Part shown: positions 42,549-61,109 of the stretch, piece after piece
Numbering within the stretch: the stretch's first letter is position 1
How the letters are laid out: each line of letters starts with the position of its first letter
DNA from: Paraburkholderia agricolaris
Lineage (GTDB): Bacteria; Pseudomonadota; Gammaproteobacteria; Burkholderiales; Burkholderiaceae
Length of the DNA stretch: 64,000 bases
Direction of reading: 5' to 3'
NCBI RefSeq assembly: GCF_009455635.1
Contig: NZ_QPER01000001.1
Location: 3,286,001 to 3,350,000, forward strand
Position numbers and translations under genes: made by a program
The notes under the pieces: generated by a model
Told to the model about the DNA's origin: nothing
What the model saw: only the letters and a program-made list of their open reading frames with translations
Databases searched by the model: none

Positions 42549-43472
42549 ATGCAAGCAGCAATGCAAATCAATGCCTCGTTCAATCCGCACGTTGCCAACG
42601 CGGCCGCTACGACGCGCAACGCGCACTGGCAGCAGCCGGCCGCCACGCCGTTCAACAACGGACGCAATGCCTTGGGCCAGATGTCGAATATGGCAAGCGG
42701 CTTCTCGAAGGCGTCGTTCTCGGTATACGGTCAAAGCACTGGCAACGGCCAGACGAGCAGCTTCTACGCGCAAGCGCATTTCAGCAATCCCGGCCGCTCC
42801 GCCAACCAGCAGCCGGCGAGCCGCGGCGGCTACAACAACCAACCGGTCAACCGTTATGACACCGGCTCGCGCGGCAACACCAGCGCGCCGCCGCGCAACA
42901 ACTGCCCGGACCGCACGCCGCCGCGCAACGATTGCGGCTGCCCGTCGAAAGGCCGCACGGAACAAACTCAATGGACCGCCACGCCGGTCACTAACAACAA
43001 GGCGAGCATCGATCTGGGCAACTACAAGCTCGACTTCAACAAGTCCGATTCGTCGATGACGATGACCAGCAAGAGCTCCGGCGACACCACCAAGGTATGG
43101 GGCGATCCGCACCTCACCCAGCACGCCAATGGCGCCAACTCGAGTACGGCGATGTTCAACGGTCCGATGACGTTCCAATTGCCGGACAACACCAAGGTCA
43201 CGGTCGGCACGCAGGCGGACAAGAACAACAAATCCGTCTCGTACGCGGACTCGGTGACGATCACCCACGGCAACAACGCCTATCAGGTCACCGGCCTGAG
43301 CCAGCAGAACAGCACCAGCCTCTCGGTGCAGAAGAGCCACGACGGCCGCGCACTCGACGCCGCCACGCCAGACGGTTACACGCTGGTCGCCAACCGCAAC
43401 GGCAGTGGCTTCGTCGATCCGAAGACAGGCAAGCAGCCGACTGAGGACGAAATCAGGAAAGCGAACACCTGA
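42549..43472 (+). CDS. DUF1521 (MIIA) self-cleaving T3SS effector candidate, NopE-like
   Basis: A 307-residue protein. The N-terminal 150 residues are low-complexity (Asn, Gln, Ser, Ala and Pro rich), as in secreted effectors. The C-terminal domain from about 160 is DUF1521: TTKVWGDPHLTQHANG holds the GDPH motif at residues 185-188 (43101-43112). In NopE1 of Bradyrhizobium this domain cuts itself between Asp and Pro in the presence of calcium (MIIA domain), so cleavage at Asp186-Pro187 is expected. It sits between acs and the T3SS operon. Secretion through this system is inferred from location and family. AGGA precedes the start; ATG 42561 is an alternative. Confidence 0.82.
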   Translation: MQAAMQINASFNPHVANAAATTRNAHWQQPAATPFNNGRNALGQMSNMASGFSKASFSVYGQSTGNGQTSSFYAQAHFSNPGRSANQQPASRGGYNNQPVNRYDTGSRGNTSAPPRNNCPDRTPPRNDCGCPSKGRTEQTQWTATPVTNNKASIDLGNYKLDFNKSDSSMTMTSKSSGDTTKVWGDPHLTQHANGANSSTAMFNGPMTFQLPDNTKVTVGTQADKNNKSVSYADSVTITHGNNAYQVTGLSQQNSTSLSVQKSHDGRALDAATPDGYTLVANRNGSGFVDPKTGKQPTEDEIRKANT

Positions 43473-46339: not shown

Positions 46340-46771
46340 CTAGCCATGTTCGCGGCCCTCCGAGGCCACGCGGGCGAGCGCCGCCCGCCCGCGCGCTTTC
46401 GCGTCATCGTGCCGAGCCCGCTCGATCTGCCACGCCCGTAGCGCCTCGCCGGCCTGCTGGCGCGCCAGTTCGTGCGCCTGCCGCGCGTTGCTCAAGCTCT
46501 GCTGCAACACCGGCGCCATGGCGTCGTGCGCACGCAGCGTGGCGTACCACTGTCCGCCCGCGCGCTGCTCGTGCCGGCAGAACATAAGCACACGCGTGCG
46601 CTCGTCCCCATGACGCGCCAGTGCCGCAACCTCAGCCTCCACGACAGCGGCCGCGCGCCGCTCCTGACGACGTGCGTCGGCCAGCGCATGCAGCTTGCGG
46701 CGCACCCGCAAACCACGCACTTTCGCGAGCACCCGCCAAAGCTCTGCTTCCCGCGCCGCGCCGCACGTCAT
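46340..46771 (-). CDS. sctO: T3SS central stalk protein SctO (YscO/HrpD-like)
   Basis: A 143-residue, Arg/Ala-rich, almost wholly alpha-helical protein (LHALADARRQERRAAAVVEA, ARQQAGEALRAWQIERARHD), as expected for the SctO coiled-coil hairpin that links the ATPase ring to SctV. The ATG overlaps the sctN stop as ATGA. SctO sequences are poorly conserved, so the call rests on size, composition and its place right after sctN. It is the last gene of the operon. Confidence 0.75.
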   Translation of the reverse strand: MTCGAAREAELWRVLAKVRGLRVRRKLHALADARRQERRAAAVVEAEVAALARHGDERTRVLMFCRHEQRAGGQWYATLRAHDAMAPVLQQSLSNARQAHELARQQAGEALRAWQIERARHDDAKARGRAALARVASEGREHG

Positions 46772-48123
46772 ACAGTGCCTGGCGCCACACCCGCGCTCGC
46801 GCACAACGCGCGCAGCGACGCCAACGTTTCCGCCCACGGACTACTGCGATCGTACGGTTGACACAGAAAGCGCTGGATCGCGGGACGCTGGTCGATCGCG
46901 CAGTCCGTTTCGGCGTCGTGACCGCGCTCGTACTCGCCGATCTGCAGCAGCATTTCGATCTCTTCGTAACGCGCGAGCCAGTCGCGCACACGGTTGGCGT
47001 CCGCGCGCTGCGCCGCGCCCGCCACGCGATTCATCAGGCGGCTGCGGCTGCGCAGAATGTCGATGGCCGGATAATGGCCGGCCGCGCCGAGCTTCGTCGA
47101 AAGCTGGATATGGCCGTCGAGCAGCGAACGCGCTTCTTCCGCGACCGGGTCCGACATGTCGGCCTCGTCGGCGAGCACGGTGTAGAACGCGGTAATGCTG
47201 CCCTGCGCCGTCGCGCCCGCGCTTTCGATCAGGCGCGGCAACTGGGCGAACACGCTCGGCGGAAAGCCGCCGCGCAACGGCGGTTCGCCGACGGCGAGGC
47301 CCAGTTCGCGCAACGCGCGCGCGTAGCGGGTCAGCGAGTCGAACAACAGCAGCACGTTGCGGCCCGTCGCGCGCAATCCCACCGCCACGCGCGCGGCCAG
47401 TTCCGCCGCCTTGATGCGCTCGGCGGCGGGACGCTCAGAGGTGGCGGCGATCACCACCGTCGATTCACGCCGCTGCGCCAGGTGATCGTGGATGAACTCG
47501 GCCACCTCGCGGCCGCGTTCGCCGATCAGCGCGACCACGACCGCATCGGTGGCCGCGCCATTCGCGATCATGCCCATGATGGTGCTCTTGCCGCCGCCCG
47601 CTGGCGCGAAAATGCCGGTGCGTTGTCCGACGCCGCAGGTCAGCATGGCGTCGATCGCGCGCACGCCGGTGGCGAATGGCGCGGAGATCACCGGACGCTC
47701 GAGCGGGTTGACCGAAGCGGCCGCGTTTCCAGGCTGGGTTGCATCGAATGAGGACGGCGACGGTGGCAGCGCCCTGCCGTCGAGCGGATTGCCGAGTCCG
47801 TCCACCACGCGGCCGAGCAGTCCGCTCGCCTCCACACTGCTCCAGGTGGCGCCGCAGCCCTGCACCTCCGTGATGTCGGACAGCCCGATGAGCCCCGCGA
47901 GCGGCATGACGAGCGCGCCGTCGTGCGCGAAGCCCACCACCTCGCCGAACTGCGCTTCGAGCGTATCGGGCCGCACCAGCCGCACCTTTTCGCCGATGCG
48001 CAAGGACACGCCCACCACGCGCGCGATCACGCCGCGCGCTTCCACGACGCGGCCATGCAGCGTGGGCGTGGAAATCAGCGTCGGCGCCCCGCCTCGCGCC
48101 CCACGTGGCAGATCGAAAGTCAT
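46768..48123 (-). CDS. sctN: T3SS ATPase SctN
   Basis: A 451-residue F1-like ATPase that unfolds substrates and strips chaperones at the export gate. Walker A reads APAGGGKST, followed by VALIGERGREVAEF; LLFDSLTRYARALRELG is the Walker B region and YPAIDILRSRSRL near the end is diagnostic of secretion ATPases. The ATG (48123) overlaps the sctV stop as ATGA. Length is normal and all catalytic motifs seem present. Confidence 0.96.
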   Translation of the reverse strand: MTFDLPRGARGGAPTLISTPTLHGRVVEARGVIARVVGVSLRIGEKVRLVRPDTLEAQFGEVVGFAHDGALVMPLAGLIGLSDITEVQGCGATWSSVEASGLLGRVVDGLGNPLDGRALPPSPSSFDATQPGNAAASVNPLERPVISAPFATGVRAIDAMLTCGVGQRTGIFAPAGGGKSTIMGMIANGAATDAVVVALIGERGREVAEFIHDHLAQRRESTVVIAATSERPAAERIKAAELAARVAVGLRATGRNVLLLFDSLTRYARALRELGLAVGEPPLRGGFPPSVFAQLPRLIESAGATAQGSITAFYTVLADEADMSDPVAEEARSLLDGHIQLSTKLGAAGHYPAIDILRSRSRLMNRVAGAAQRADANRVRDWLARYEEIEMLLQIGEYERGHDAETDCAIDQRPAIQRFLCQPYDRSSPWAETLASLRALCASAGVAPGTV

Positions 48124-50198
48124 GCCACCCCCAGAGTGGCGACGGTCCGCACGCGATAGATGTCGAGTGGAATTTCCTCGATCGCCAGCACGTCGATACG
48201 TCGGCCAAAATCGTGCAGCAGACGCATCAGATGCGGACGCAACAAGGCATTCGTGACGATCAGTCCGATGCCCGACAGGTCGCCGGTCAGGATGTGCTGC
48301 GTGCGCGCCATTTCGTCGGCGGACAACACGCATTGCGGCTCGCCATCCACGCCACCCCGGATTTGCGCTTCCAGGCTCGCTTCCCAGCCGGGGTCCAGCA
48401 CCGCTGCACTGATCGTCCACGTTTCGAGGTCGGCGTAGACACGCGCGATCTGCCGCCCTAACTGAATGCGCGCCTCGCGCAGCATGCGGTCGGTGGTACG
48501 CTCGCCGGCGGGCACCCTCACGATCGCCTCCAGGATCGCGCGCAGATTGCGGATCGGCACCCGCTGCTGCAGCAATTGCCGCAGCACGCCCGCGAGTTGC
48601 ACCGTGCTCACCGCCTGCGCCGCCTGGGCAACCAGTTCGCGGAATTCGATCGCCAACTGATCGAGCAGGAAGCGTGTTTCCTGGGTGCCGAGAATGTCGG
48701 CGGCCGAACGCTCGCACACCTCCGCCAGATGCTCGCAGAGCGCCTCTTCCACCGTCGCCTTGTGCAGTTGCGGATCGCGAAGCGACGCCGCCGTCGCGGC
48801 CGCCACCCAGACCGCTTTTTCCGCGCGCGACCGATAGCCTTCCACGCCTTCGAACGTGACCTGTGCCGCGTCGCCGCTCACCAGCATGTGCCCCGCCACC
48901 AGCGTGCCGCTAGCGAACGGCACGTCCTCAATATCGACGATGTACCGTTCCGGTGACAGCCGTTTGTCGCGCAACAACGCGAGACCCGGAAACGGCACGC
49001 CGAGATCGGTCATCAGATTGCGGCGCAACTGGCCGAGCGAGCGGTTCAGCGCCTCGGGCCGCAACGCGTCGAACGCCTTCAGACCGACCCGCAAACGCAG
49101 CGTCGCGCTCGTACCCAGTTCAACGTCGTCGAGAATGCGCGGCACGTAGTTGCCGCCGTCGCGCGTCATGCCGGGCATCAGCGCGCGCTGCGAGTTCGCC
49201 GCCAGCGATGCGTTGCGCAGCAGCGTGATGGCGAGCGTGAGCAGGAGCCCGCCCGCCACCAGAAACTGGATGTGCGGAAAACCCGGGATCGCGGCCAGCG
49301 CCATGCAGGTGGCCCCGGCCATGCCGATCGCCTTCGGATGCACCGTGAGCTGCTTGTAGATGTCGCCGCCCAGGTGCGCGTCGGCGCCCTCGCCCGCGCT
49401 CACGCGCGTCACCAGAATGCCCGCCGCCACCGAGACGATCAGCGACGGAATCTGCGAGACGAGGCCGTCGCCCACGGTGAGGATCGTGTACGCCTGCAGT
49501 GCGTCGGCGAACGACATGCCACGTTGCGCGATCCCCACCGTCAGTCCGCCGACGATGTTCACTAGCGCCACCACGAGGCCCGCCACCGCGTCGCCCTTGA
49601 CGAACTTCATCGCGCCGTCGAGCGAGCCGTAGAAATACGTTTCGCGCTCCAGCGACGCGCGCATGCGACTTGCCTGCACCGCCGAGATCACGCCGTTGCG
49701 CAGATCGGCGTCGATACTCATCTGCCGCCCGGGAATACCGTCGAGCGTGAAGCGCGCCGCCACTTCCGCGACGCGGTCCGCGCCCTTCGCGACCACGATG
49801 AACTGGATCGCCGCCAGCACGATGAACACCACCAGCCCCACCGCCACGTTGCCGCCCACCACCAGCGCGCCGAACGCGCCGATGATCTGGCCGGCGTGCG
49901 CATGCAGCAGGATCATCTTGGTCGACGCGATCGCGAGCGCGAGGCGCAGCAAGGTGGTCAGCAGCAGCAAGGAGGGAAAGCTCGCCAGTTCCACCGACTT
50001 CGACACGTACAGCGTGGTGGTCAGCATCATCAGGCTGGCCGCGAAGCTCACGCAGATGAACAGATCGAGCACGAACGGCGGCACCGGCACGATCAGCAGC
50101 GCGAGCACCGCCAGAACGCCGATCCCGACGGCGAGATCGGCGTGCCGCGCGAAGAACGCCGAGAGATCGTAGCGACCGAGAAACGAAGGGTTCGACAT
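48120..50198 (-). CDS. sctV: T3SS export gate protein SctV
   Basis: A 692-residue FHIPEP-family protein with about seven or eight membrane helices in the N-terminal half. The conserved cytoplasmic loop contains DGIPGRQMSIDADLRNG and GDAVAGLVVALVNIVGGLTV. A large C-terminal cytoplasmic domain forms the nonameric docking ring. Start 50198 comes 1 nt after the sctU stop and gives the standard N-terminus. It is translationally coupled to sctN. Full length and intact, so it contrasts with the short sctU just ahead. Confidence 0.96.
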   Translation of the reverse strand: MSNPSFLGRYDLSAFFARHADLAVGIGVLAVLALLIVPVPPFVLDLFICVSFAASLMMLTTTLYVSKSVELASFPSLLLLTTLLRLALAIASTKMILLHAHAGQIIGAFGALVVGGNVAVGLVVFIVLAAIQFIVVAKGADRVAEVAARFTLDGIPGRQMSIDADLRNGVISAVQASRMRASLERETYFYGSLDGAMKFVKGDAVAGLVVALVNIVGGLTVGIAQRGMSFADALQAYTILTVGDGLVSQIPSLIVSVAAGILVTRVSAGEGADAHLGGDIYKQLTVHPKAIGMAGATCMALAAIPGFPHIQFLVAGGLLLTLAITLLRNASLAANSQRALMPGMTRDGGNYVPRILDDVELGTSATLRLRVGLKAFDALRPEALNRSLGQLRRNLMTDLGVPFPGLALLRDKRLSPERYIVDIEDVPFASGTLVAGHMLVSGDAAQVTFEGVEGYRSRAEKAVWVAAATAASLRDPQLHKATVEEALCEHLAEVCERSAADILGTQETRFLLDQLAIEFRELVAQAAQAVSTVQLAGVLRQLLQQRVPIRNLRAILEAIVRVPAGERTTDRMLREARIQLGRQIARVYADLETWTISAAVLDPGWEASLEAQIRGGVDGEPQCVLSADEMARTQHILTGDLSGIGLIVTNALLRPHLMRLLHDFGRRIDVLAIEEIPLDIYRVRTVATLGVA

Positions 50199-50199
50199 G

Positions 50200-50940
50200 T
50201 TATTGACCAAGCTCCCGATGAAGTGCGCGACGACGGCTTTTCACATAGGGGTCGCCCTCGTCGTCGCGGAATTCGCGTTTGATTTCGTTCTTGTCCATGC
50301 GCAGTCCGCGCATCCACAAGAAGTGTTGAATGAGATAGTCGGCCACGCCGGGCACGATCTGCGACGCCGCCATCCACGCCAGCAGATGCGAATGCGAGAT
50401 CGCCGTGTAGCCCAGCAGCACCGGCAGTGAAAACGTATAGGCGGGTGCGAGCTGGCGCAGCCATGTCTGGATCGCCATCGCGAAGAGAATCAGCAGAATC
50501 GCGAACTGTATGATCGTCAGCACGGAATCCCACACCAGTCGCAGGCTGAACATCTGCCTGAGTCCGTTGAGCGGATTGAGCCGCTTGAAGTCGGGCTTCA
50601 CCCGCTTCAACGCGAGCAGGCCGCGCGTTTGCGCCAACTCCGGAATCAGCACCGCGAGCGCCCCCACGCCGAGTGTCGTCAGGAACGGCATCGTGAACAC
50701 CTGGCAGGCGGCGAAGGTTGTAGCGAACTGGTCGTCGAAAGCGCGTGAGGCGTCGAGCGTCGTCACGCGCACGATCAACTGGCAAGCCAGCGCATAGAGA
50801 TGCGGCGCCTCAATGACGAGATACAGCCACCAGCACAGGCCGCTGAACGCGACGCTGACGTGCGTACTTCTGGCGATCTCGCCGTCGTCGCGCGCGCGGC
50901 GGATACGTTTTGGGGTTGGTGCTTCGGTTTTGTTGCTCAT
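50200..50940 (-). CDS. sctU: T3SS export switch protein SctU, lacking the NPTH autocleavage domain
   Basis: A 246-residue protein where SctU is usually about 350. The N-terminus is canonical (EAPTPKRIRRARDDGEIARS), followed by four membrane helices and the start of the cytoplasmic linker (MDKNEIKREFRDDEGDPYVK). It ends at HRELGQ, just before the region that normally carries the NPTH self-cleavage site and the C-terminal domain. sctV begins 1 nt later, so no further sequence could follow in any frame. The substrate-specificity switch domain is therefore missing rather than frameshifted. The membrane part may still support the export gate. Confidence 0.88.
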   Translation of the reverse strand: MSNKTEAPTPKRIRRARDDGEIARSTHVSVAFSGLCWWLYLVIEAPHLYALACQLIVRVTTLDASRAFDDQFATTFAACQVFTMPFLTTLGVGALAVLIPELAQTRGLLALKRVKPDFKRLNPLNGLRQMFSLRLVWDSVLTIIQFAILLILFAMAIQTWLRQLAPAYTFSLPVLLGYTAISHSHLLAWMAASQIVPGVADYLIQHFLWMRGLRMDKNEIKREFRDDEGDPYVKSRRRALHRELGQ

Positions 50941-50955
50941 GGGTCGCCCGGTGGC

Positions 50956-51681
50956 TTACGGAATCAGATGAATCGCGTGCTGGAAGACGAGTTGCAATTG
51001 CGCAAACAGCGCAGGCACACTCAACACCACCGCTAGAGAAAGCACCAGCGCCTTGACGGTGCGCGCGGTCGCAAACGGGTTGAGGCGCTTCGCGTGGCGC
51101 GACATCAGTCCGAAAGCGATGTCCACCATCAGCACGAGACCGAGCAGTGGGCTTGCGAGCCGCACGCCGTCGATAAACGTGTCCGTGATATCGCGTAGCG
51201 CGAGTTGCCGGAAAACGTCGACCAGATCGGTCCGCCAGCGTCCCGGTGGCCATAGCACCCAGGCGTCGGCAAAAAAGCCGAATAGCAACGGCAAGCCGGG
51301 CCCGGTGAAGAGCGTCAACGCGGCGAACTGCAGGAACAATGTTTCGAACAGCGCCGCGTCCTGCTGGAAGTTCGGGTCGTACATCGCGGCGCTCGCGTAG
51401 CCGCCCTGCTGGTCGAGAATCGCGCCGGCCGCGGCGGCGGCATGAAAAATCGTGCTGAGCAGCAAACCCAGCGCGATGCCGGTGGCCACCTCGAGACCGG
51501 CGCCCGTCAGCAGATGCGGCGGCCAGCCGACCTGCTGCGGCAGCATGGCGAGGGCCAGCAGCACCGGCAGGCGCAGCGCGATACCCAGCGAGCCGCTCTG
51601 CCCGAATGGAATCAGAAAGAGCGCCACGGCGGGGCGGATCGCGCAGAAGGCGAAGCCCTCCAGATAGTCGACGTGGTTCAT
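50956..51681 (-). CDS. sctT: T3SS export apparatus protein SctT
   Basis: A 241-residue multi-spanning membrane protein of the FliR/SctT family, with about six helices. Family segments include EVATGIALGLLLSTIFHAAA, GAILDQQGGYASAAMYDPNF and ASPLLGLVLMVDIAFGLMSR. It starts 2 nt after the sctS stop. It forms the export gate core with SctR and SctS. It is slightly shorter than many SctT proteins, but all segments seem present. Confidence 0.9.
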   Translation of the reverse strand: MNHVDYLEGFAFCAIRPAVALFLIPFGQSGSLGIALRLPVLLALAMLPQQVGWPPHLLTGAGLEVATGIALGLLLSTIFHAAAAAGAILDQQGGYASAAMYDPNFQQDAALFETLFLQFAALTLFTGPGLPLLFGFFADAWVLWPPGRWRTDLVDVFRQLALRDITDTFIDGVRLASPLLGLVLMVDIAFGLMSRHAKRLNPFATARTVKALVLSLAVVLSVPALFAQLQLVFQHAIHLIP

Positions 51682-51683
51682 GT

Positions 51684-51959
51684 TCAGTGCAGGCGCCCCG
51701 CCGCGATGAACGTGAAGACGTGCGCGAGAAAACGCGCCAGTTCGCGACTCGCCCACGGTCCGGTGAGCATCAGCACGAAGCCCACGCAGATGATCTTCAC
51801 GCCGTACGGCAGGCTCTGATCCTGAATCTGCGTGATCGACTGCAGGAGGCCGATCACGAGACCCACGGCGGTGGCGACCGCGAGCGCCGGCAACGAGAGC
51901 CAGAACACCAGCAGCAATGCGTCGCTGGACAAGGTGGCGAGAGTCGGCACGCTGCTCAT
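51684..51959 (-). CDS. sctS: T3SS export apparatus protein SctS
   Basis: A 91-residue protein with two membrane helices, as in the FliQ/SctS family. The diagnostic loop GLLQSITQIQDQSLPYGVKI lies between them. The ATG overlaps the sctR stop as ATGA. It is part of the SctRST export gate in the inner membrane. Confidence 0.93.
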   Translation of the reverse strand: MSSVPTLATLSSDALLLVFWLSLPALAVATAVGLVIGLLQSITQIQDQSLPYGVKIICVGFVLMLTGPWASRELARFLAHVFTFIAAGRLH

Positions 51960-52606
51960 TTAGCGTAGCCGACAATGAGGCCGTGCATCAGCCTGGACAT
52001 GCCCGATACCGATACGAAGACGAACAGCTTCAACGGAATCGATACCGTGCTCGGCGACAGCATCATCATGCCCATCGCCGTCAGCACGTTGGCCACCACG
52101 AGATCCACTACCAGGAACGCGATATACAGCAGGAAGCCCGCTTCGAAGCCGCTTGAAATCTCGCTGATCAGAAACGCGGGAATCAGAAGCGGCATATCGG
52201 TTTCGCGCGCGTCGCGGGCGGGGTCGATCCGCTTCGCGGCCGTGACGAGAAACTGCCGCTCGGCGGGGCGCGAATGCTTCATCATGAAATCGCCGAGCGG
52301 GCCGCGCACCGCCTGCAGCAACTCGGCGGGACGCGGCAGGGCGCCGGTGCTTTCAGCGCCCTGCGCGTCGTCGAGCGCCGACTGGATGGCGGCAATCGTC
52401 GGTGCCATCACGACCAGCGTCGCCGCGAGCGCGAGGCCCGAGATCACGAGATTGCTCGGCGCCTGCTGCACACCGAGCGCGGAACGCAGCAAGGTCAGAA
52501 CGATGCTGAACTTCGTGAACGAGGTGGTCATCGCGACCGCGAGCGGTAGCAGGCCCATCATGAAAAACAGACTGACGACCTGCAACTGGTCGAGTTGGGC
52601 GATCAT
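51956..52606 (-). CDS. sctR: T3SS export apparatus protein SctR
   Basis: A 216-residue FliP/SctR-family membrane protein with about four helices. FTKFSIVLTLLRSALGVQQA and PSNLVISGLALAATLVVMAP are the typical N-terminal block, and PAFLISEISSGFEAGFLLYI plus MGMMMLSPSTVSIPLKLFVF are the C-terminal hallmarks. The ATG overlaps the sctQ stop as ATGA. It pentamerises around SctS and SctT. Confidence 0.96.
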   Translation of the reverse strand: MIAQLDQLQVVSLFFMMGLLPLAVAMTTSFTKFSIVLTLLRSALGVQQAPSNLVISGLALAATLVVMAPTIAAIQSALDDAQGAESTGALPRPAELLQAVRGPLGDFMMKHSRPAERQFLVTAAKRIDPARDARETDMPLLIPAFLISEISSGFEAGFLLYIAFLVVDLVVANVLTAMGMMMLSPSTVSIPLKLFVFVSVSGMSRLMHGLIVGYAK

Positions 52607-53574
52607 GCCGGCAGATCTCCGTGCGTCAATCGCGTGACGCGCACGCCGAGCGATCCCTCGATATCGATCAGTTCGCCACGCGCGAACGGAATCCCTTGAC
52701 ATAGCAACGTTACCTTCCGTTCACGCGTCGGCAAGCGAAACGCGACGATCGATCCCTCGCGCAAATGCGCCAGTTCGGCAACCGATAGCGACAGCGTGCC
52801 GAGCACGGCGTCGAACGGAAAAGTCAGGGCGTCGATGGGCAGCAGTTCGCTGCTCACTTCGAGGGGCGTGGCGGCTTCGGTCAGGACTTGGTCAATCATG
52901 GTGTGCTCCTCAGCAAACTTCAACAAAACCCTGCCCGTGCCCATTCGCATGGGCACACGCAGGCAACAGGAATGACGGTCGAATAGCAGTGCGTCGCCCA
53001 CCGCGATCTTGCGCAGGCGCGGCAGCGATAAAGACGGACCGCTCACGCAAACAGGCAGGCGCACGTGAAGGCGTGCGAGCAGCGCCTCGCGGCCGACCGG
53101 GGGCGGCGGCCGCTGGCGCAGCCAGGCGTCGACCGCCGGACTGCGAAACGAAAAATGTGCTGTGCGACCGCTCGCGGTGTGCGTCACGGCGACGCCGTAG
53201 GCGCCCGTCGGCGCGAGCGCATCGAAGGCAACACCGTTCACGTCGAAGGTAAAACCAAACAGACCTTCGAGCGCGCACAGCCAGTCGCTCAGGGCGTCGG
53301 TGATATGCGTGGGGGCCGCGTCGCCGCGCGCGCCGAGCACCGGCGTGGCGAGTTCGGGCAGTAGCGCGCCGGCGTCGCACGCCACGCTGAACGGCGATTG
53401 CGCGGCAACGCCCGAGAGCAACAGCGGATAGCGCTCGCGGCACGCTTCGAATTGCAGCGTGAAGCGCCGCGCGCCGACCTGCACCGCGAGCGGGAAGCCA
53501 AAATGCCGGATCGCCAGGTTGTGGCGCTCCACGTCCTCCAGCGCGAGCGTCTCCATGTCGGGCCAGAGCGTCAT
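52603..53574 (-). CDS. sctQ: T3SS cytoplasmic ring (sorting platform) protein SctQ
   Basis: A 323-residue protein. The N-terminal two thirds are poorly conserved; the C-terminal SpoA domain is clear (about 240-315: LPIDALTFPFDAVLGTLSLS, VTLLCQGIPFARGELIDIEG). SctQ forms the pods of the cytoplasmic sorting platform with SctK and SctL. The ATG overlaps the sctL stop as ATGA. An internal Met226 (52899) has its own GAGGAG ribosome site and would yield a 98-residue SpoA-only SctQ-C. Confidence 0.9.
   Translation of the reverse strand: MTLWPDMETLALEDVERHNLAIRHFGFPLAVQVGARRFTLQFEACRERYPLLLSGVAAQSPFSVACDAGALLPELATPVLGARGDAAPTHITDALSDWLCALEGLFGFTFDVNGVAFDALAPTGAYGVAVTHTASGRTAHFSFRSPAVDAWLRQRPPPPVGREALLARLHVRLPVCVSGPSLSLPRLRKIAVGDALLFDRHSCCLRVPMRMGTGRVLLKFAEEHTMIDQVLTEAATPLEVSSELLPIDALTFPFDAVLGTLSLSVAELAHLREGSIVAFRLPTRERKVTLLCQGIPFARGELIDIEGSLGVRVTRLTHGDLPA
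52897..52911 (-). promoter_or_regulatory. Internal ribosome binding site and start for SctQ-C
   Basis: On the coding strand GAGGAG (52911-52906) is followed after 6 nt by ATG (52899-52897), in frame with sctQ at codon 226. It starts a 98-residue product comprising the SpoA domain. Comparable internal starts produce YscQ-C in Yersinia and similar short forms in other systems, where they are needed for the sorting platform. Use of this site is predicted, not shown. Confidence 0.65.
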
Positions 53575-54386
53575 GCCGCCTCCCGGATATAGGGGCGACG
53601 CACGATGCGCACGACGTTCGGCGGCGGGGCCGGCGGCACTGACGGTGGTGGCGAAAGTGGTGGCGAAGGCGGCGGCGCGATCGTCACGGGCGCCGACAAC
53701 GCGGCCAACGTGTCGCGCACGCCGTGCTCGATCGCCGCTAGCGTCGTGCGGCCGGCCCGATCCGGGAAGTCGTATTGGTGCAGCATCGCAGCCACGCCAT
53801 CGCGCATGCCCTGCTCCAGCGCGCGCAACTGCACCTTGAGGCCGCCGTCGATCACGCCCGCCTCCGTTTCGATCACGCACGAGTGCGCGGGCAGACCCGC
53901 ATCGGCAAGCACCGTGCATAACGGCGCGCCCAGTTCGCGCTCAACCGTGCCGATCAGTTGCTTCGCCTCGTCGAACACCTCAGGGGCGACGCGCACTGAG
54001 ACCAGCCGCTGTGATTGCGCGACGATCACCGAGCGGCGCAACTGATTCGCGAGCGCCGCCGAGGGCGGCAATTCGCCCACGATGTCCGTCACCGCCTCGA
54101 GCACCATGCGCATGAGCCGCTCCTCGAGACGATGCGCCGCGTACGCCGCCGCAGCCGTGCGCGCGACCTGCTCGCGCAACGCGGCGGCGACGCCGGACGC
54201 GTGCCCGCGCCGCCACGCCCGCCGCTTGAGCTTACGGGCGAGCGTCACGAGCCGACTGCGCTCGCGGGCGGTTTCGGCAGCGCGCTCCGCCTCGACGGCG
54301 CGCAGGCCATCGAGCGACAGTTGCTCACGTATGCTCAGATGCCCGTCGCATTCAATTCGCCACGGGCCAATTCGGCAGATCAGCAT
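53571..54386 (-). CDS. sctL: T3SS stator protein SctL, with unusual proline-rich tail
   Basis: A 271-residue FliH/SctL-like protein. The N-terminus begins LICRIGPWRIECDGHLSIRE, then a long Arg/Ala-rich helix (RSRLVTLARKLKRRAWRRGH) and a C-terminal domain with VSVRVAPEVFDEAKQLIG and ETEAGVIDGGLKVQLRAL, the usual SctL motif. It regulates the SctN ATPase and links it to SctQ. The last 30 residues are a Pro-rich run (APPPSPPLSPPPSVPPAPPP) not typical of the family. It overlaps sctK by 7 nt. Confidence 0.9.
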   Translation of the reverse strand: MLICRIGPWRIECDGHLSIREQLSLDGLRAVEAERAAETARERSRLVTLARKLKRRAWRRGHASGVAAALREQVARTAAAAYAAHRLEERLMRMVLEAVTDIVGELPPSAALANQLRRSVIVAQSQRLVSVRVAPEVFDEAKQLIGTVERELGAPLCTVLADAGLPAHSCVIETEAGVIDGGLKVQLRALEQGMRDGVAAMLHQYDFPDRAGRTTLAAIEHGVRDTLAALSAPVTIAPPPSPPLSPPPSVPPAPPPNVVRIVRRPYIREAA

Positions 54387-54955
54387 GGCTTGCCCTCCAA
54401 CAGACGTCGCGCGGTAGCGACCAGCTCGCGTGCGTCGGCGGCGGTGAATTCGTGCACCTGGTAATGCGACGCGGCTTCTGAAATCCCGCGCGGCAACCTC
54501 AGGCTCCACCAGAACGCGTAGCGCGAATCTGCGGCAGCTTCGAGCGCCAATGCGAGGCCGACCGCCGTCATCTCGCGGCGGCTGAACAGCGGCGGCATGG
54601 GTTCGATCCGCAGATCGGCAACGGCCGCGCGTGGGTGACGCTGGATCGCGCCGAGCATGCGCGGCGCGACGCCCATCGCGAAGGCGGTGCGCGCCTGCGC
54701 GGCGACCACGCGGCGCAGCGAACGGGCGAACGCGAGCGCGGCGACGATGCGGCACAGGCGCGCGCACGCGGGACGCGGCCAGATCGGCAGCGCGGGCGGC
54801 ACGTCGGAAAGCGCCACCTGAACCAATTGCGGGTAGCGGCCAAACAGCGCCGCATGTGCATTGCGCGCGGCGCGTTCGTTGCGGATCGGACGGCCGTCCT
54901 CGAGCCAGCTGTGATGCGCCCAGTCCGCCGGCGCGCAGGTATAGGCGTGCTTCAT
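54380..54955 (-). CDS. sctK: T3SS sorting-platform protein SctK
   Basis: A 191-residue, helix-rich, Ala/Arg-rich soluble protein between sctJ and sctL, the constant position of sctK (YscK/HrpD-like). Sequence conservation in the family is weak; LARGISEAASHYQVHEF-like C-terminal text gives little more. ATG overlaps the sctJ stop as ATGA. Assignment is by order and size. It would connect the SctD ring to SctQ. Confidence 0.75.
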   Translation of the reverse strand: MKHAYTCAPADWAHHSWLEDGRPIRNERAARNAHAALFGRYPQLVQVALSDVPPALPIWPRPACARLCRIVAALAFARSLRRVVAAQARTAFAMGVAPRMLGAIQRHPRAAVADLRIEPMPPLFSRREMTAVGLALALEAAADSRYAFWWSLRLPRGISEAASHYQVHEFTAADARELVATARRLLEGKPC

Positions 54956-55887
54956 GCGTCTTCTCCGCGATGCTCCGTCGGGCCGGCCGCTTCTCCTGCT
55001 TCTTTCGCTTCGCCGGCTGCGCGTGGCTTGTCGCCCGTCATCGGCTCGCGGCGCCCGTCTGACGCGCCTGCCGGCTTGCGGCCGCCGCGCGGCTCGCGTT
55101 CGAACCGCGTGCGCAGACCCGAGCGCCATAGCCAGATCGATCCCGACACCAGCAGCACCAGCGCAGCCAGCGCACCCAGCACGGTGGTGGCACGCGACGG
55201 CATGCGCGCCCTGGCTTCGCTACAGGTCGTCACGCTGACCGCGCCTGCGGCGCTGGCCACATCGTTTCCGCCGGCGATGTCGTGATCGTTGTCGCAACCG
55301 CCAGGAAAACTCAGCACCGGCGTGACCGGCACGAGCGTCAAGGCCACGCGCTCGGGCATCAGTCCCTCGACCCCACCCGCCACCAGCGCGCGAATCCGGT
55401 CACGCATCGGTTCAAGATTGGTGTCGCCCCGGTAGCGCATCATCACGGAGGCCGACGGCAGCGTGTCGTGCGTCGGGTCCATCGGATCCTTCTCCGGCAG
55501 CACGATATGCACGCGCGCCAGCAACACGCCGTCCATCTTTTCAAGCGTTTCGGAGAGTTCCTGCGACAGGCCGAACACGTAGCGAATCCGGTCCTCCTCC
55601 GGACTTGAGATCAAACCCTGGCGGCTGAACAGGTCGCCGAGGTTGGCGTGGCCGCCGCGCGGCAGCGCATAAGCGCTCGCGAGTTCGGTGGCGACCACCG
55701 CGTCGGCGTCGTCGACGGAAATGTTCCAGCTCCGGTCGGCGTTGCGTTCCTTGTAGCCATTGATGCCGTGATGGCTCAACGCGGCGACGATCCGGTTCGC
55801 CTGGTCCTCGTCCAGGCCTTCGAATAGCGAGGTTCTGCAGCCGGCAAGGAGGAACAGCACCGGCAGCAGGATCAGAACGCGGCGCAT
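54952..55887 (-). CDS. sctJ: T3SS inner-membrane ring lipoprotein SctJ
   Basis: A 311-residue YscJ/FliF-family lipoprotein. The signal peptide ends in the lipobox LLAGC with Cys17, followed by RTSLFEGLDEDQANRIVAAL, a family hallmark. The periplasmic ring-building motifs continue through ALPRGGHANLGDLFSRQGLI and VLLARVHIVLPEKDP. A C-terminal membrane helix (VLGALAALVLLVSGSIWLW) precedes an Arg/Gly/Glu-rich tail. The start overlaps the sctI stop as TGATG. It is longer than typical because of a loop with two Cys before the last helix. Confidence 0.95.
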   Translation of the reverse strand: MRRVLILLPVLFLLAGCRTSLFEGLDEDQANRIVAALSHHGINGYKERNADRSWNISVDDADAVVATELASAYALPRGGHANLGDLFSRQGLISSPEEDRIRYVFGLSQELSETLEKMDGVLLARVHIVLPEKDPMDPTHDTLPSASVMMRYRGDTNLEPMRDRIRALVAGGVEGLMPERVALTLVPVTPVLSFPGGCDNDHDIAGGNDVASAAGAVSVTTCSEARARMPSRATTVLGALAALVLLVSGSIWLWRSGLRTRFEREPRGGRKPAGASDGRREPMTGDKPRAAGEAKEAGEAAGPTEHRGEDA

Positions 55888-56210
55888 CAGCTTCGCTGCG
55901 ACAGCGTCTGGATCGCGCGACCGGCTTCGTCGGCGACGCGCACCGTCATCTGCACCCGCACCGCGAACGCGCCCATGTCCGCCTGGAGACGCAACATGTC
56001 GGAGGTCGAAATGCGACCGGAGTCGAGCTGCTCCATGTGCGTGTTCAGTTGCTGTGCCGACGCGTCCTGGGCGTCCTGGGCGCGCGCCAGCAGACGTTCG
56101 ATCAGGGAGCCGTCGGTAGCCGCGTCGCCTGGCTGGCCGATGGTCTGGGCGCCGACGGTGGACCAAAGATCGGCCGGCGGCGGCGCGGTAATAACAGGGG
56201 GTTGCAACAT
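55887..56210 (-). CDS. sctI: T3SS inner rod protein SctI
   Basis: A 107-residue protein with a disordered Pro-rich start (QPPVITAPPPADLWSTVG) and a C-terminal helix (STSDMLRLQADMGAFAVRVQ) typical of SctI/YscI, which forms the inner rod at the needle base. It lies between the sctG-like gene and sctJ, the canonical place. It starts 1 nt past the previous stop. Confidence 0.82.
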   Translation of the reverse strand: MLQPPVITAPPPADLWSTVGAQTIGQPGDAATDGSLIERLLARAQDAQDASAQQLNTHMEQLDSGRISTSDMLRLQADMGAFAVRVQMTVRVADEAGRAIQTLSQRS

Positions 56211-56211
56211 A

Positions 56212-56667
56212 TCAATGTCCGCTTCGGATAGTCAGTCGTTCATTGGTGGATAGAAAAACCGCAGGGCTCGCGGTCTGGGTCGTGCTGGCGGCTCGCGCGT
56301 AAGGCACGCATTCGGGCAGGCCGAGAAAGGCCGCCGCCATGGAACTGGCGCCGGGCTCGTCGGCTGTGACACTCGTCAACATCCGCACGCCGGCCGCGTA
56401 GCGCTGCTCGAGCACCAGACACACGCCAAGCCAGGCGCGCGCGAGCATGCTGGCGGGCGCGACGTCCATCGCCCGGCCAAACAACAGCGAGGCGCCGCGA
56501 TAGTTGGCGCGGTCCAGTTCGACGAGACCAAGGCCGAGATACGGAAAAGCGCGCTGCGGATACAGCAACGCCAGTCGCTCGAACAGATAGCGCGCCTCGT
56601 CGAAGCGTCGGTAGACGCGGGCGTAATGGCCGATCGAAATCAGCAGTTCCAGGGTATCGTCCTGCAT
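56212..56667 (-). CDS. sctG: TPR-like T3SS chaperone (SctG / HrpB1-like)
   Basis: A 151-residue protein built from TPR-like helices (ISIGHYARVYRRFDEARYLF, FPYLGLGLVELDRANYRGAS, ARAWLGVCLVLEQRYAAGVR). Placed right after the needle gene, it fits SctG, a TPR needle chaperone, and also the HrpB1/HrpK family. GGGAG precedes the ATG at 56667 by about 8 nt; a longer GTG start seems unlikely. It would keep SctF monomeric in the cytoplasm. Confidence 0.72.
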   Translation of the reverse strand: MQDDTLELLISIGHYARVYRRFDEARYLFERLALLYPQRAFPYLGLGLVELDRANYRGASLLFGRAMDVAPASMLARAWLGVCLVLEQRYAAGVRMLTSVTADEPGASSMAAAFLGLPECVPYARAASTTQTASPAVFLSTNERLTIRSGH

Positions 56668-56680
56668 CGATGAAGCTCCC

Positions 56681-56702
56681 GAAGACACCCGAAGGTGTCT
56701 CC
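56681..56702 (-). promoter_or_regulatory. Intercistronic cUUCGg hairpin between sctF and sctG
   Basis: In the transcript GGAGACACC-UUCG-GGUGUCUUC forms a nine-pair stem closed by C and G around a UUCG tetraloop, an exceptionally stable fold. It lies 20 nt past the sctF stop and 14 nt ahead of the sctG start. It probably protects the sctF message end or attenuates downstream expression, so that the needle subunit is made in excess. Confidence 0.65.
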
Positions 56703-56721
56703 GTCCGGTTAAGAAAAAGCG

Positions 56722-57051
56722 TTAGTGGGAAGCGCGAGCGGTTTCCTTCTGCGCGTCAGTCAGGCCCTGGATACAGGACGTCGCGACGCTCTGGGTCGTG
56801 TTGACCGCGCCCATGGCCTGCTGCACTTTCATCATCGCGACGTTCTGCTGTTTGTCGTCCGCGCCTTCGGCCTGTTGCAGCTTGTTGTCGAAGTCCTTGT
56901 TCTGCTTCTCGAGGATCTTCGCCAGCACTTCCGACACTTTCTGCGCGGAGATGCCGCCAGTCGCGCCGACCGTGGAACCGCCATCGCCGCCGCCAAAGCC
57001 GCCGAAACCGTTGGCCCCGGTGTTCGGAGCTACTGTGTTGACCTGATTCAT
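56722..57051 (-). CDS. sctF: T3SS needle subunit SctF (probable)
   Basis: A 109-residue protein. It begins MNQVNTVAPNTG, has a glycine-rich stretch (GFGGFGGGDGGSTVG) and then two helices (AQKVSEVLAKILEKQNKDF, NVAMMKVQQAMGAVNTTQSV) separated by a short turn, as in needle subunits. AAGGAA precedes the ATG. The order D-E-F-G strongly suggests SctF, although the glycine-rich front and the helix-breaking PxNP motif typical of YscF are not clearly matched. A pilin or harpin-like role is a second possibility. Confidence 0.65.
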   Translation of the reverse strand: MNQVNTVAPNTGANGFGGFGGGDGGSTVGATGGISAQKVSEVLAKILEKQNKDFDNKLQQAEGADDKQQNVAMMKVQQAMGAVNTTQSVATSCIQGLTDAQKETARASH

Positions 57052-57326
57052 GATCTGGATTCCTTTCTGTTGTCGCGCGCGTTTGTGAAGTTGGCACTTC
57101 GTTCCACCACTTGCCGAGCCGCGCGCAAACACTCGACAAGCAGAATCAGTTCTTTTTGCGGGGCCGGCGCCGCGCTTTGCAGCACCTGGCTCAGGGCGGC
57201 GATTTCGTCCGTCAGTTGCGCAACGATGGCCGCGCGTCCCGCGCCGCCGCCTTCGGCGAGCCGCTCTTCCAGCAGCAGATCGGCGCAGGCGCCAAGGGTG
57301 CTTTTAACGGCAGTTTCTGGGGGCAT
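57048..57326 (-). CDS. sctE: SctE-like needle chaperone (YscE-type)
   Basis: A 93-residue helical protein (LGACADLLLEERLAEGGGAG, QLTDEIAALSQVLQSAA) between sctD and sctF. In Ysc-type systems that slot holds SctE, a small co-chaperone of the needle subunit. It overlaps the end of sctD by 23 nt and its stop overlaps the sctF start as ATGA. Assignment is by order and size. Confidence 0.65.
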   Translation of the reverse strand: MPPETAVKSTLGACADLLLEERLAEGGGAGRAAIVAQLTDEIAALSQVLQSAAPAPQKELILLVECLRAARQVVERSANFTNARDNRKESRS

Positions 57327-58401
57327 GGCTCGCCTCCATGAAAAATTCGTATACCGAACCATCGTCATCACGCGTCACTTCCGCGGCGCACGCCGAGATG
57401 CGTGTAATCCGGCCCACCGGCAGCCGCGCCCCGGCGAAATAACGCGTGCCCTGCGCGTCCGTGAGCCAGAGCGCATGTTTTCCAACCAGCAGATTCATGC
57501 CGAGCGCGTCGAGGGGCACCCGCACGCGGTCCGCGCCTTGCGCATGGCCTGGGAAGGTAAGGCCGCGCAAGCCGTTGATTTCGCCGCGAGCCAGCCGCTC
57601 GACGCGGCCGTAGTCCCACGATTCGGGTGACACGAAGCCACGTCCGTCGGGCAGCGTCACGCTGAACGCACCGGGTTCGGCGGCACGCACCTCGGCGCCG
57701 CGGTAATAGCGGGTGAGGAACTCCCGGACCGCGTCCTGCAACTGGTCGAGCACGATCACCCGCATGACCGGCGCGCGTTGCCGCGACCACGCGCTCGCGC
57801 TCAGCGCAGCGAGATCGGTTTGCGTACGTACGTAGCCCTCGTAGACGAGCGCGCCGGATTTCGGATCGACATGGGTCTTGACGAGCCGAAAGGTCTCGCT
57901 GGTTCGAGATGAACGCGGCGGGTCCACCAGATGGTTCGACGCGAACCACGGAAGAAGCGCCAGCGCGCACGGCGTGGCGACCACGCAGGCCCTCAGGATC
58001 GGCGAAGCGTCCGACCAGCGTCTCGTCACGTAAGCGAGCGGCGCATGGCGCAGCAGATAGGCCCGCTCGGCGTCGCGCGCCATCGTCGTGGTGGATGCAT
58101 CGCGTCCGCTGAAACGGAACTTGACCGGCCCCGCCGAGAACCACGCACCACGCCGCAACAGCACGCGACGCCCTGGCGCCAGGCTTCGCCCGAACACCGC
58201 GACGCCCGCCCGATGCGCGGTCAACGCGAGGCGCGCGTCCTGCAACTGGACACTCAGATGGCGCGCGTGGACCCCTTCGTCGATCACCATCAGATCGGCC
58301 TCGCTGCTGCTGCCGATCTGCAGTAACCGACCCGGCTGCAGCACCACGCTCGCGCCGGTGTGCACGCCGTCCGTCACCTGGATTTGCGCATCAGCGGTCA
58401 C
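57304..58401 (-). CDS. sctD: T3SS inner-membrane ring protein SctD
   Basis: A 365-residue bitopic protein from a GTG start (58401) inside the end of sctC (11-nt overlap). Residues 1-110 are the cytoplasmic FHA-like domain (SSSEADLMVIDEGVHARHLS). One membrane helix follows at about 136-153 (ACVVATPCALALLPWFAS), then a periplasmic domain with ring-building repeats (GYVRTQTDLAALSASAWSRQ). It forms the outer of the two inner-membrane rings with SctJ and anchors SctK. Confidence 0.88.
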   Translation of the reverse strand: MTADAQIQVTDGVHTGASVVLQPGRLLQIGSSSEADLMVIDEGVHARHLSVQLQDARLALTAHRAGVAVFGRSLAPGRRVLLRRGAWFSAGPVKFRFSGRDASTTTMARDAERAYLLRHAPLAYVTRRWSDASPILRACVVATPCALALLPWFASNHLVDPPRSSRTSETFRLVKTHVDPKSGALVYEGYVRTQTDLAALSASAWSRQRAPVMRVIVLDQLQDAVREFLTRYYRGAEVRAAEPGAFSVTLPDGRGFVSPESWDYGRVERLARGEINGLRGLTFPGHAQGADRVRVPLDALGMNLLVGKHALWLTDAQGTRYFAGARLPVGRITRISACAAEVTRDDDGSVYEFFMEASHAPRNCR

Positions 58402-60376
58402 GGCGGTTCTCCCACGGCATCCTGTTCACCGGCTCGAGCGGAGACGGAGCCGATTGCATCGATTGGCCTGACGGCTTCGCTTGCGCCGCCTGGCCAGCCG
58501 GCAGCAACGCCGCGCCGACCTGCGACTGCACGGCTATGGCCGTCGCAGGCGCCGCCATCGACGCGCGCGCCAGTTGGCTCGTCAAATCCGGCGCTACGTC
58601 GCCGCCCGACGCGCGCTTCATGCGCGGCGTGATGAGAATCAGCCGCACGAGCCGCTCGTGAGTGGTCTCGGTGGAACGGAACAGCGCACCGACATACGGC
58701 ACATCGCCTAGCCACGGCACCTTCGAGGTGCTGCTCTCGCTGCGTTCGTATTGGTAGCCGCCGATCAGCAAACTTTCGCCGTCGCGCACCACGGCCTGTG
58801 TCACGATCGAATGGTTGTCGACCTTTGGAATCCCATCCACCGACATCGTCGAGTTGAAGCCGCCGTCCTCGATCTGGATATTCAGGCGGATGCTGCTGCG
58901 CGCGTCGCCGGTCGCTTCGACACTCGGCGTCACTTTCAGCGTGAGCCCCACGTCGATATTGAACAGATCGACGTCCTGATTGCCCGCGACCCGCACGTAC
59001 ACCGAACTGCGCGAGGTCAACACCGCCTCGGTGTTGTTCAGCGTCAGCACCTGCGGACGTGAGAGCACGCGCGCCTTGCCGGCGTCCTCGAGTGCGTGAA
59101 GCTGGGCGAACAGGTACTGCGCCGAATTGCCGACGAGCGTCGCGAGATTCAACCCGCTGGCGGCGCTGGCGGGAGTCAGCAACCCCGGATTGCCGAAGCT
59201 CACCGGTGCGTTCATGGTCCCGGAGGCACCATTGATGCGCCCGCTCGCGCCGCCCCACTGCACGCCGAGCGAACGCGCCGCGCTGGACGACACGTCGATC
59301 ACCACCGCATCGATCTCGACCAGCTCCTGCGGCTGATCCAGCATCGCGATCGCGCGTTCGTAATTCGGCATCATCGAAGCGAGGTCGTTGACGACCACCG
59401 AATTGGTGCGCGGATCGGCAAGGATGTTGCGCCGCGCGGGCGTCGCCGCCGGCGGCGCAGTCTGGGCATTCTGCGCGCCCGGCAGCGGCGGCGCGCTGTG
59501 GGTATCACTGTCGTCATCGCTGTCGGAGCTGGACGGCGTGCCGGCGAGACCCAGGCCGCGCAAGCTCGGCAGCGGCGGCGGCGCGCCGCGCGCATTGCGC
59601 ACCTCGGCGCGCGAGCGAGTCACGGCGGGCACGCTTGCCTGCCACGTGTCGTTCATCAGACGGCGTAGCAGCGAGGCCACGCCCGGCACCACCTGATCCT
59701 GCGAGCGCACCGTGTAGTGAATGTCTTCCGCCTGCGCGTAACGCAGCGGAAAAATCCGGATCACGGTCTGATCGAACGAAGGCTCGACCGTCGCCTGGCG
59801 TTGCGCCTTGTCGATAGCCTCAACCACCGCGTCGACGAAAATCGCAGGACCGGCCACGCGCGCGGTGGTCGGCGAGTAGCGGACCGGCAGACGGGCGTCG
59901 TCGAGATCGAGGTTGCGCAGCAACGAAGCGACCGCGTCGCGGGTCAACGGCGCGAACGGGATGACACGACTGCGCACGCCGGCCGCGCTTGTGACGTGCA
60001 TCGCCCTGCCGTCGAAATACCAGACCAGACCGTAGGCCTCGACCAGTTGCGCGAACACATTGCCCGGCGCGTCGTCGAAACGGCCGTTGACGACACCCTT
60101 GACGTCGCGGCCAATGTCCGCGGTCAGCCCTTCCACCGCGAGTACGTCGCGCAGCACGTCGGGCAACGGCGCGCCGTTCACCGCGTAGTGCATGGTGGCG
60201 CCTCGCCATACGGGCATGGCGGCGGGGGCTGCCGACACCAGCAACGCCGCCAGAACCGCCGCCACCGCAAGCTGGCCGGCGAGATGACGCACGGCCCGGG
60301 CCGCGGGCGGCGGCGAGCAGGCAGGTCGGCCACCGCCTTTCCTTCTGGTCGAATCACTGCGCAACATCATATGCAT
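58391..60376 (-). CDS. sctC: T3SS outer-membrane secretin SctC
   Basis: A 661-residue secretin. After a signal helix (AVAAVLAALLVSAAPAAMPV) come the N0/N1 domains (GAPLPDVLRDVLAVEGLTAD), N3 with a Pro/Asp/Ser-rich insert (around 280-330), and the secretin barrel. The barrel holds SRPQVLTLNNTEAVL and VPWLGDVPYVGALF, the diagnostic secretin box. Start 60376 is chosen over a GTG six codons earlier because AGGA lies 8 nt ahead. It is the first main gene of the sct operon. Confidence 0.94.
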   Translation of the reverse strand: MHMMLRSDSTRRKGGGRPACSPPPAARAVRHLAGQLAVAAVLAALLVSAAPAAMPVWRGATMHYAVNGAPLPDVLRDVLAVEGLTADIGRDVKGVVNGRFDDAPGNVFAQLVEAYGLVWYFDGRAMHVTSAAGVRSRVIPFAPLTRDAVASLLRNLDLDDARLPVRYSPTTARVAGPAIFVDAVVEAIDKAQRQATVEPSFDQTVIRIFPLRYAQAEDIHYTVRSQDQVVPGVASLLRRLMNDTWQASVPAVTRSRAEVRNARGAPPPLPSLRGLGLAGTPSSSDSDDDSDTHSAPPLPGAQNAQTAPPAATPARRNILADPRTNSVVVNDLASMMPNYERAIAMLDQPQELVEIDAVVIDVSSSAARSLGVQWGGASGRINGASGTMNAPVSFGNPGLLTPASAASGLNLATLVGNSAQYLFAQLHALEDAGKARVLSRPQVLTLNNTEAVLTSRSSVYVRVAGNQDVDLFNIDVGLTLKVTPSVEATGDARSSIRLNIQIEDGGFNSTMSVDGIPKVDNHSIVTQAVVRDGESLLIGGYQYERSESSTSKVPWLGDVPYVGALFRSTETTHERLVRLILITPRMKRASGGDVAPDLTSQLARASMAAPATAIAVQSQVGAALLPAGQAAQAKPSGQSMQSAPSPLEPVNRMPWENRRDR

Positions 60377-60548: not shown

Positions 60549-60788
60549 TTCGCATATCCAGAAAATAAGACATTCATCGATTTATTAACGTCGTATCCCT
60601 GTATGACCCATTAGGCACTCCATAAGATGAAGATTGGCGAACTGCCACTCACTTCGTCCAGACATGCGAAACATCCGGTTCTATTTATCTCGTAAATTTA
60701 GCGATAACAATAAAAGCCTTGCGGCAGGAGTTGGCTTCATCGCATTACCCGTCGTCGCGTGTTCATGCATTCCTACACGCGAACGCCT

Positions 60789-61109
60789 ATGCGGATGACA
60801 GAGTATTGCAACTTCACTCCCGCGCTGGCACGGCCACGACTGCGCTCCATACGTATCAACGGACTCGCAACCTGTCTGCGGCTGGAAGAAGTCTATTGGC
60901 GAATCATTGAAGAAATTGCCCGCCAGAAATCCATGTCGGTGGGGAAATTGATTTCTCAATGGGCACGCGAAATTGATTTGACGCAGGAGACGGTCTGCAA
61001 CTTCACCGGCCTGATACGCATTATTTGCGTCACCCAATTACTTGACAAAAAACATCCAATCAATCCGGAAGCAATCGATCCCGACGCCTTGCGGAATCCG
61101 CCTCAATAA
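60789..61109 (+). CDS. Ribbon-helix-helix (RHH_4-like) protein next to the T3SS
   Basis: About 106 residues. The core RLRSIRINGLATCLRLEEVYW, then EIARQKSMSVGKLISQWARE, matches the Ribbon-helix-helix RHH_4 pattern (basic strand, aromatic-rich helix, second helix). The DNA-binding strand is residues about 12-18. It is divergent from the sctC operon and directly ahead of the harpin-like gene, so it is a candidate local regulator. The start is uncertain (60759, 60789 or 60795), as no strong ribosome site is present. Confidence 0.7.
   Translation: MRMTEYCNFTPALARPRLRSIRINGLATCLRLEEVYWRIIEEIARQKSMSVGKLISQWAREIDLTQETVCNFTGLIRIICVTQLLDKKHPINPEAIDPDALRNPPQ

Follow-up and report, generated by a model that had tools for sequence, protein, structure and literature searches.

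Can an injectisome work with an SctU protein that stops before the NPTH autocleavage site and the CC domain? The question is raised by a gene on the minus strand of a 64,000-nucleotide stretch of Paraburkholderia agricolaris DNA, the whole of which we refer to as the window. This gene, sctU (50200..50940), encodes a short form of 246 amino acids, made up of the membrane domain and the CN linker without the NPTH/CC domain. Its product ends in ...DDEGDPYVKSRRRALHRELGQ, eight residues past the linker quoted in the earlier note on this DNA. The stop codon (TAA) occupies 50202-50200 and the ATG of sctV lies at 50198-50196, leaving one base between the two genes.

As the earlier note had claimed, the protein ends at residue 246, before the NPTH region: beyond the 246-aa open reading frame (ORF) itself, the matches to Pfam, TIGR and a solved structure all stop short. 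The Pfam family Bac_export_2 (PF01312) scored 170.8 bits against a cut-off of 24.4 and covers only profile positions 2-239 of 335. TIGR01404, the SctU equivalog, scored 179.5 bits, under its curated cut-off of 358, and the match stops at position 241 of 341. An alignment to Shigella SpaS (8axk) stops at chain residue 239. In Shigella Spa40, the cleavage point is between N257 and P258 (PMC3542141). What is missing from the protein is thus about 18 residues ahead of the NPTH place, the NPTH site and the whole CC domain.

The rest of SctU is present. The SctU/FlhB membrane domain was recognized with PF01312, by sequence with 8axk and 6s3l, and by fold with 6s3l. The CN linker carries its EGDP motif, and G229, D230, and P231 are invariant across 53 rows. 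Membrane domain, loop, and CN linker, all retained in the short form, are the portion of SctU that wraps around the SctR/S/T gate. An AlphaFold2 model from 53 rows was of medium confidence (mean pLDDT 78.9, pTM 0.56) and helical up to residue 245. Its best match among solved structures was FlhB of the FliPQR-FlhB complex (6s3l_K; probability 1.00, E 1.7e-3, TM 0.47 by query), and the predicted structure resembles FlhB of the export gate.

The sctU gene belongs to a cluster of 16 minus-strand genes (46340-60376, ~14 kb) in the order C-D-(F)-chaperone-I-J-K-L-Q-R-S-T-U-V-N-(O). Wallner et al. (2021; PMC8565462) introduced the name Paraburkholderia Short Injectisome (PSI) for clusters of 12-14 kb with 14-16 genes in an atypical order and without sctF by homology, present in Paraburkholderia and Caballeronia. 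By gene set, size, order, and host range, the cluster is a PSI. Clusters of this type have also been published for P. phytofirmans PsJN and P. xenovorans LB400, the latter being our locus L006. Family matches identified sctC, which encodes the secretin (58391..60376; Secretin); sctD (57304..58401; Yop-YscD_cpl); sctJ, which encodes the lipoprotein (54952..55887; YscJ_FliF, with TIGR02544 above its cut-off); sctL (53571..54386; T3SS_SCTL); sctR (51956..52606; FliP); sctS (51684..51959; Bac_export_3); sctT (50956..51681; Bac_export_1); sctV (48120..50198, 692 aa; FHIPEP); and sctN, which encodes the ATPase (46768..48123, 451 aa). The C-terminal tail of SctL is rich in proline. We assigned sctQ (52603..53574) from FliMN_C, with SpaO_YscQ under its cut-off; sctI, the inner rod gene (55887..56210), weakly, from a T3SS_basalb_I match under its cut-off; and sctK (54380..54955), which matched no family, by position. 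A gene for a TPR chaperone of the CdsG/SycD type (56212..56667) matched NCBIfam CdsG and LcrH_SycD, both under their cut-offs, and was recognizable by tblastn in one PSI sub-lineage and not in the second.

Two further genes are candidates. The position and size of a 109-aa ORF (56722..57051) make it the candidate needle gene (sctF), and a 143-aa protein encoded directly after sctN and overlapping its stop (46340..46771) is a candidate SctO; neither matched a Pfam or NCBIfam family. The latter has a counterpart in at least 33 of 34 related loci (26 picked by script and seven of the other eight seen, with L018 the exception). Its model is a two-helix coiled-coil hairpin (pLDDT 93.6) that superposes on YscO (4mh6, TM 0.79) and CT670 (3k29, TM 0.80), with generic coiled coils ranking higher. 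From its position, conservation, and model, the protein is a probable SctO, whereas sctO is stated to be absent from the published PSI (PMC8565462).

On the plus strand, an RHH_4 protein, a possible regulator, is encoded divergently from sctC (60759..61109). Relatives of it are present in 23 of 35 PSI loci, several of the others being cut near that place. Between the PSI and a DUF1521 gene lies an ORF for an 844-aa protein (43751-46285, plus strand) without a Pfam match, recognizable by tblastn in part of the PSI loci.

To what extent is the short SctU peculiar to this strain? A scan of species genomes yielded 14 loci, of which 13 are titled Paraburkholderia and the other is titled Caballeronia; SctU ends at residue 246 in every one of them. 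With 20 further stretches, the short form was present in 34 of 34 loci, with 246 aa in 33 and 247 aa in L050 (33.6% identity); some of these loci are one genome in two collections, and they comprise 32 distinct coding sequences, the window included. Within our genus set of 144 genomes, 36 contained a close SctU relative, 35 at E ≤1.3e-72 and one (G043) at 2.4e-36. All 36 of these PSI genomes encode a short SctU of 246-247 aa (all 30 of L020-L049, with L050-L055 the other six). Among 96 database proteins, 75 of the 77 with at least 46% identity are 246-249 aa and the remaining two (216 and 161 aa) share the same tail, while the other 19, at 36% identity or less, are 350-406 aa.

The end of the protein was kept while its stop codon changed, since that codon is TAA in 28 of the 34 loci and TGA in six. 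The sctU-sctV gap is one base in 33 of the 34; it is eight bases in L050 (G043), the most distant locus. As all 34 loci end at 246-247 aa with two different stop codons, we rejected a sequencing error or local deletion. Read-through or a frameshift into a hidden C-domain was rejected as well, since sctV comes next in 34 of 34 loci and the six frames hold no C-domain. The earlier note's proposals that the truncation is no frameshift and that the same short form in several strains would mark a real variant system are thus strongly supported, and what it had named as evidence to the contrary (full-length SctU in the same operon, a local deletion, or a sequencing error) did not appear.

Full-length proteins outside the PSI served as a control. 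The next 40 non-PSI rows of the genus search were all full length (341-385 aa), and 36 contained NPTH or NPVH. The other four (L098, L102, L108, and L123) keep the C-domain with YS[SAP]R at the NPTH place. The view of the earlier note that essentially all homologs carry NPTH therefore needs an exception within the genus, where another injectisome type retains the C-domain with a different motif. We built a tree of the region common to both forms with 18 short and 40 full-length rows, selected among fetched sequences; eight of the 40 carry neither NPTH nor NPVH. A single branch separated the short forms from all other rows (93/76; recovered in 90% of bootstrap trees). Support for the short forms as one group is moderate with P0120 as the deepest short row; without this row, the branch was at 100/98. 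P0120 is a metagenomic protein of 254 aa (33% identity) that falls with the short forms and has no NPTH. Its composition was flagged, its completeness is unproven and its contig is 1977 bases long. P0118 (167 aa) was discarded as a fragment, as it ends inside the membrane domain.

We also scored up to seven candidates in each of 369 class-level genomes. All 19 loci that were fetched (L073-L091) encode full-length proteins; the other matches were judged by open-frame length alone, which may hide a short form. Among the fetched loci, L074, L075, L077, and L084 encode full-length SctU/FlhB-like proteins with no NPxH at the usual place, and L073 has NPTR there. In injectisomes of the PSI class, SctU is normally short.

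A gene that has lost a widely conserved domain is often in decay, and the needle gene has been noted as missing in P. phytofirmans (PMC3639386, PMC3885511). We examined selection on sctU in two sub-lineages, represented by 17 and 14 sequences. Median pairwise dN/dS (Nei-Gojobori) was 0.256 and 0.209, respectively. For codons 1-210 the values were 0.266 and 0.250, and for codons 211-246 they were 0.124 and 0.096; all are rough, as some synonymous distances are close to saturation. Constraint is stronger on the retained tail than on the remainder of the protein, and sctU, under purifying selection, does not look like a decaying gene. With dN/dS well under 1 and the same protein end in 36 of 36 genomes behind two different stop codons, a local deletion, sequencing error, or pseudogene is a highly improbable explanation.

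Another possibility is that the missing domain is supplied in trans, by the flagellar FhlB protein or by a cleaved C-terminal fragment of flagellar FlhB or another SctU. We built a C-domain profile from 38 full-length relatives and searched all six frames of 35 PSI loci (750,146 bases, window included). Nothing scored better than E = 1, whereas the same profile matched in eight of eight control loci, including those of the FhlB and YS[SAP]R types. Besides the short SctU, the SctU/FlhB family is represented in the genome of this strain by three full-length proteins, all with NPTH, and by a stand-alone C-domain (C1:4584945). As the latter lacks NPTH, adjoins a Flg_hook gene and is separated by ~38 kb from the best match to FlhB, we identify it as FhlB. 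It was the only stand-alone C-domain recovered, so the search that the earlier note had suggested for a separate, FhlB-like NPTH protein gave only a candidate without NPTH beside a FliK-type gene, which we rejected.

The three full-length NPTH relatives in this genome, together with the single stand-alone C-domain protein found in each of 35 genus genomes, offer possible donors. However, such a protein is as common without a PSI (27 of 27 genomes) as with one (the other eight), and FhlB itself, near flhB, lacks NPTH. Moreover, the PSI genome G024 contains, besides the short SctU and FhlB, only one full-length relative, which is on the contig of FhlB, 40 kb away, and is thus flagellar; the PSI there cannot borrow from another injectisome. 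Complementation in trans is accordingly improbable.

Since NPTH and the CC domain are absent, we looked for the ruler that is their partner. SctP is poorly conserved, and a highly divergent one may escape recognition. Searches of the genome of this strain with PF02120 (Flg_hook) and PF09483 (HpaP) recognized no ruler of the SctP/FliK family in the PSI: Flg_hook matched twice, 28 and 38 kb from flhB, and HpaP once, beside a full-length SctU on C2, all outside the PSI. As the PSI has neither the NPTH/CC domain nor a recognized SctP, the known substrate-specificity switch seems to be lacking in its entirety.

The earlier note had left two outcomes, another switching mechanism or a machine locked in one state. 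Sequence does not distinguish them, although the lack of a recognizable SctP favors no switch. The main rival to that reading is that substrate order is set by a different switch, consisting of chaperones, SctV, or an unrecognized lineage-specific protein rather than the SctU C-domain and SctP. The TPR chaperone gene in the cluster of one sub-lineage could provide such a function, as could one of several small ORFs without a family, and our search of this genome for an HrpJ gatekeeper, which gave no match, had no working control. On the other hand, all operon genes in the window have structural or chaperone roles, leaving none spare for a ruler, and the chaperone was not recognizable by tblastn in the second sub-lineage. 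We consider a different switch a serious but minority possibility.

What might such a machine export? A gene on the plus strand (42549..43472) encodes a protein with a DUF1521 domain (E 6.5e-29) and a GDPH motif at 43101, the single occurrence of GDPH in six frames of the whole window. By Pfam, DUF1521 was present in 31 of the 144 genus genomes, namely in 31 of the 36 with a PSI and in none of the 108 others (Fisher p = 1.2e-26, uncorrected for kinship, the linkage being among related genomes). In the other five PSI genomes (G028, G047, G074, G085, and G091), where Pfam gave no hit, a GDPH protein with an MQ[AP]T start is encoded at the same place, and profile comparison with the DUF1521 set gave 98.6% probability. 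Thus, a GDPH protein of the NopE/MIIA type is encoded nearby in 36 of 36 PSI genomes. At the level of loci, it is a neighbor in 32 of 34; in L050 (G043) and L053 (G078), sctU and the DUF1521 hit are 10 and 11 kb apart, which puts the hit at the margin of the stretch or outside it. Genome G123 has an extra DUF1521 copy on another contig.

NopE proteins are secreted by type III systems, and VIC_001052 cuts itself at GDPH in a calcium-induced manner (PMC6506597). The PSI-linked proteins have the domain and the GDPH site in common with NopE1, NopE2, and VIC_001052 (MIIA, DUF1521), and their own cleavage and secretion are only predicted. From the linkage, the GDPH/DUF1521 protein is a probable PSI cargo, and it is a strong substrate candidate for a class in which the naming authors found none.

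This candidate bears on the proposal that the PSI no longer secretes effectors and is instead an appendage or a structure for adhesion, for which no switch would be required. A non-secretion role has been raised for non-canonical injectisomes by Wallner et al., who found no effectors for these types (PMC8565462). We likewise recognized no translocator in the PSI of this strain, where the single SseC-type translocator of the genome (C1:1275237) lies 11 kb from another SctU. Yet the ATPase, stator, gate, and secretin are all retained, and the cluster is linked to a protein whose family is secreted by type III systems, which makes a purely structural role unlikely.

We therefore lean, with some reserve, toward the reading that the PSI is a switchless type III exporter working in one export mode. 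Export would proceed through SctRST, the short SctU, and SctV with SctN-SctO and would serve a small cargo set. Rod and needle subunits and the main cargo, the GDPH/DUF1521 protein, would be recruited via SctV, SctN-SctO, and chaperones, with no early-to-late switch. That the machine assembles and exports, and that it has no other switch, we infer from its genes. A narrower version, which we regard as plausible but clearly less likely, is that the PSI could be a dedicated exporter for one GDPH protein family, in which case the only self-cutting step left would be in the cargo, after export.

Work on other systems bears on the one-mode reading. Early flagellar subunits in Salmonella dock on the FlhB C-domain (PMC8983047, PMC9307174); losing this domain should therefore impair export, which counts against the reading. 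Together with the ruler, the C-domain also carries out the change of substrate class, which in injectisomes leads from needle building to the export of other proteins. Cleavage and the action of FliK permit late export in flagella (PMC7911332). A non-cleaving Spa40 in Shigella still exports needle subunits (PMC3542141); cleavage is thus unneeded for early export there, the domain itself being present. If the PSI does export with an SctU that extends no further than the CN linker, the C-domain would serve to order substrates and be dispensable for export itself. A conserved injectisome class without the SctU C-domain and a recognized ruler is a natural experiment on the purpose of that domain, set in environmental and plant-associated bacteria.

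The injectisome class itself is already known, and the short SctU is a new aspect of it. The PSI of Wallner et al. (2021) agrees with ours in gene set, size, and host range, and the main text of that paper has a single mention of SctU, among the core components, with no word of a missing C-domain; it reports no cognate substrate (PMC8565462). A P. fungorum paper lists an HrcU homolog, with no comment on its length in that listing (PMC7474880), and among the titles and abstracts that our searches of open PMC papers brought up, none describes an SctU without its C-domain. Compared with canonical SctU/FlhB proteins (SpaS, YscU, and FlhB), the PSI form shares the membrane domain, the loop, and the CN linker with EGDP..K, but it lacks NPTH, the CC domain, and a recognized partner ruler. 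A second comparison is available within the genus. One full-length SctU of the YS[SAP]R type (L133:10301-11332, minus strand) is encoded beside a 3426-codon ORF, in agreement with what has been published on the BCI injectisome (PMC8565462). The YS[SAP]R-type loci are probably BCI, which would make it, after the PSI, the second injectisome type in this genus to lack the autocleavage site. SctU of this probable BCI type (L098, L102, L108, and L123) also lacks NPTH and presumably does not undergo autocleavage at that site; unlike the PSI form, it keeps a folded C-domain, in which YS[SAP]R replaces NPTH. FhlB, flagellar here by position, is the other natural split of the FlhB family: it consists of the C-domain alone, the half that is absent from PSI SctU.
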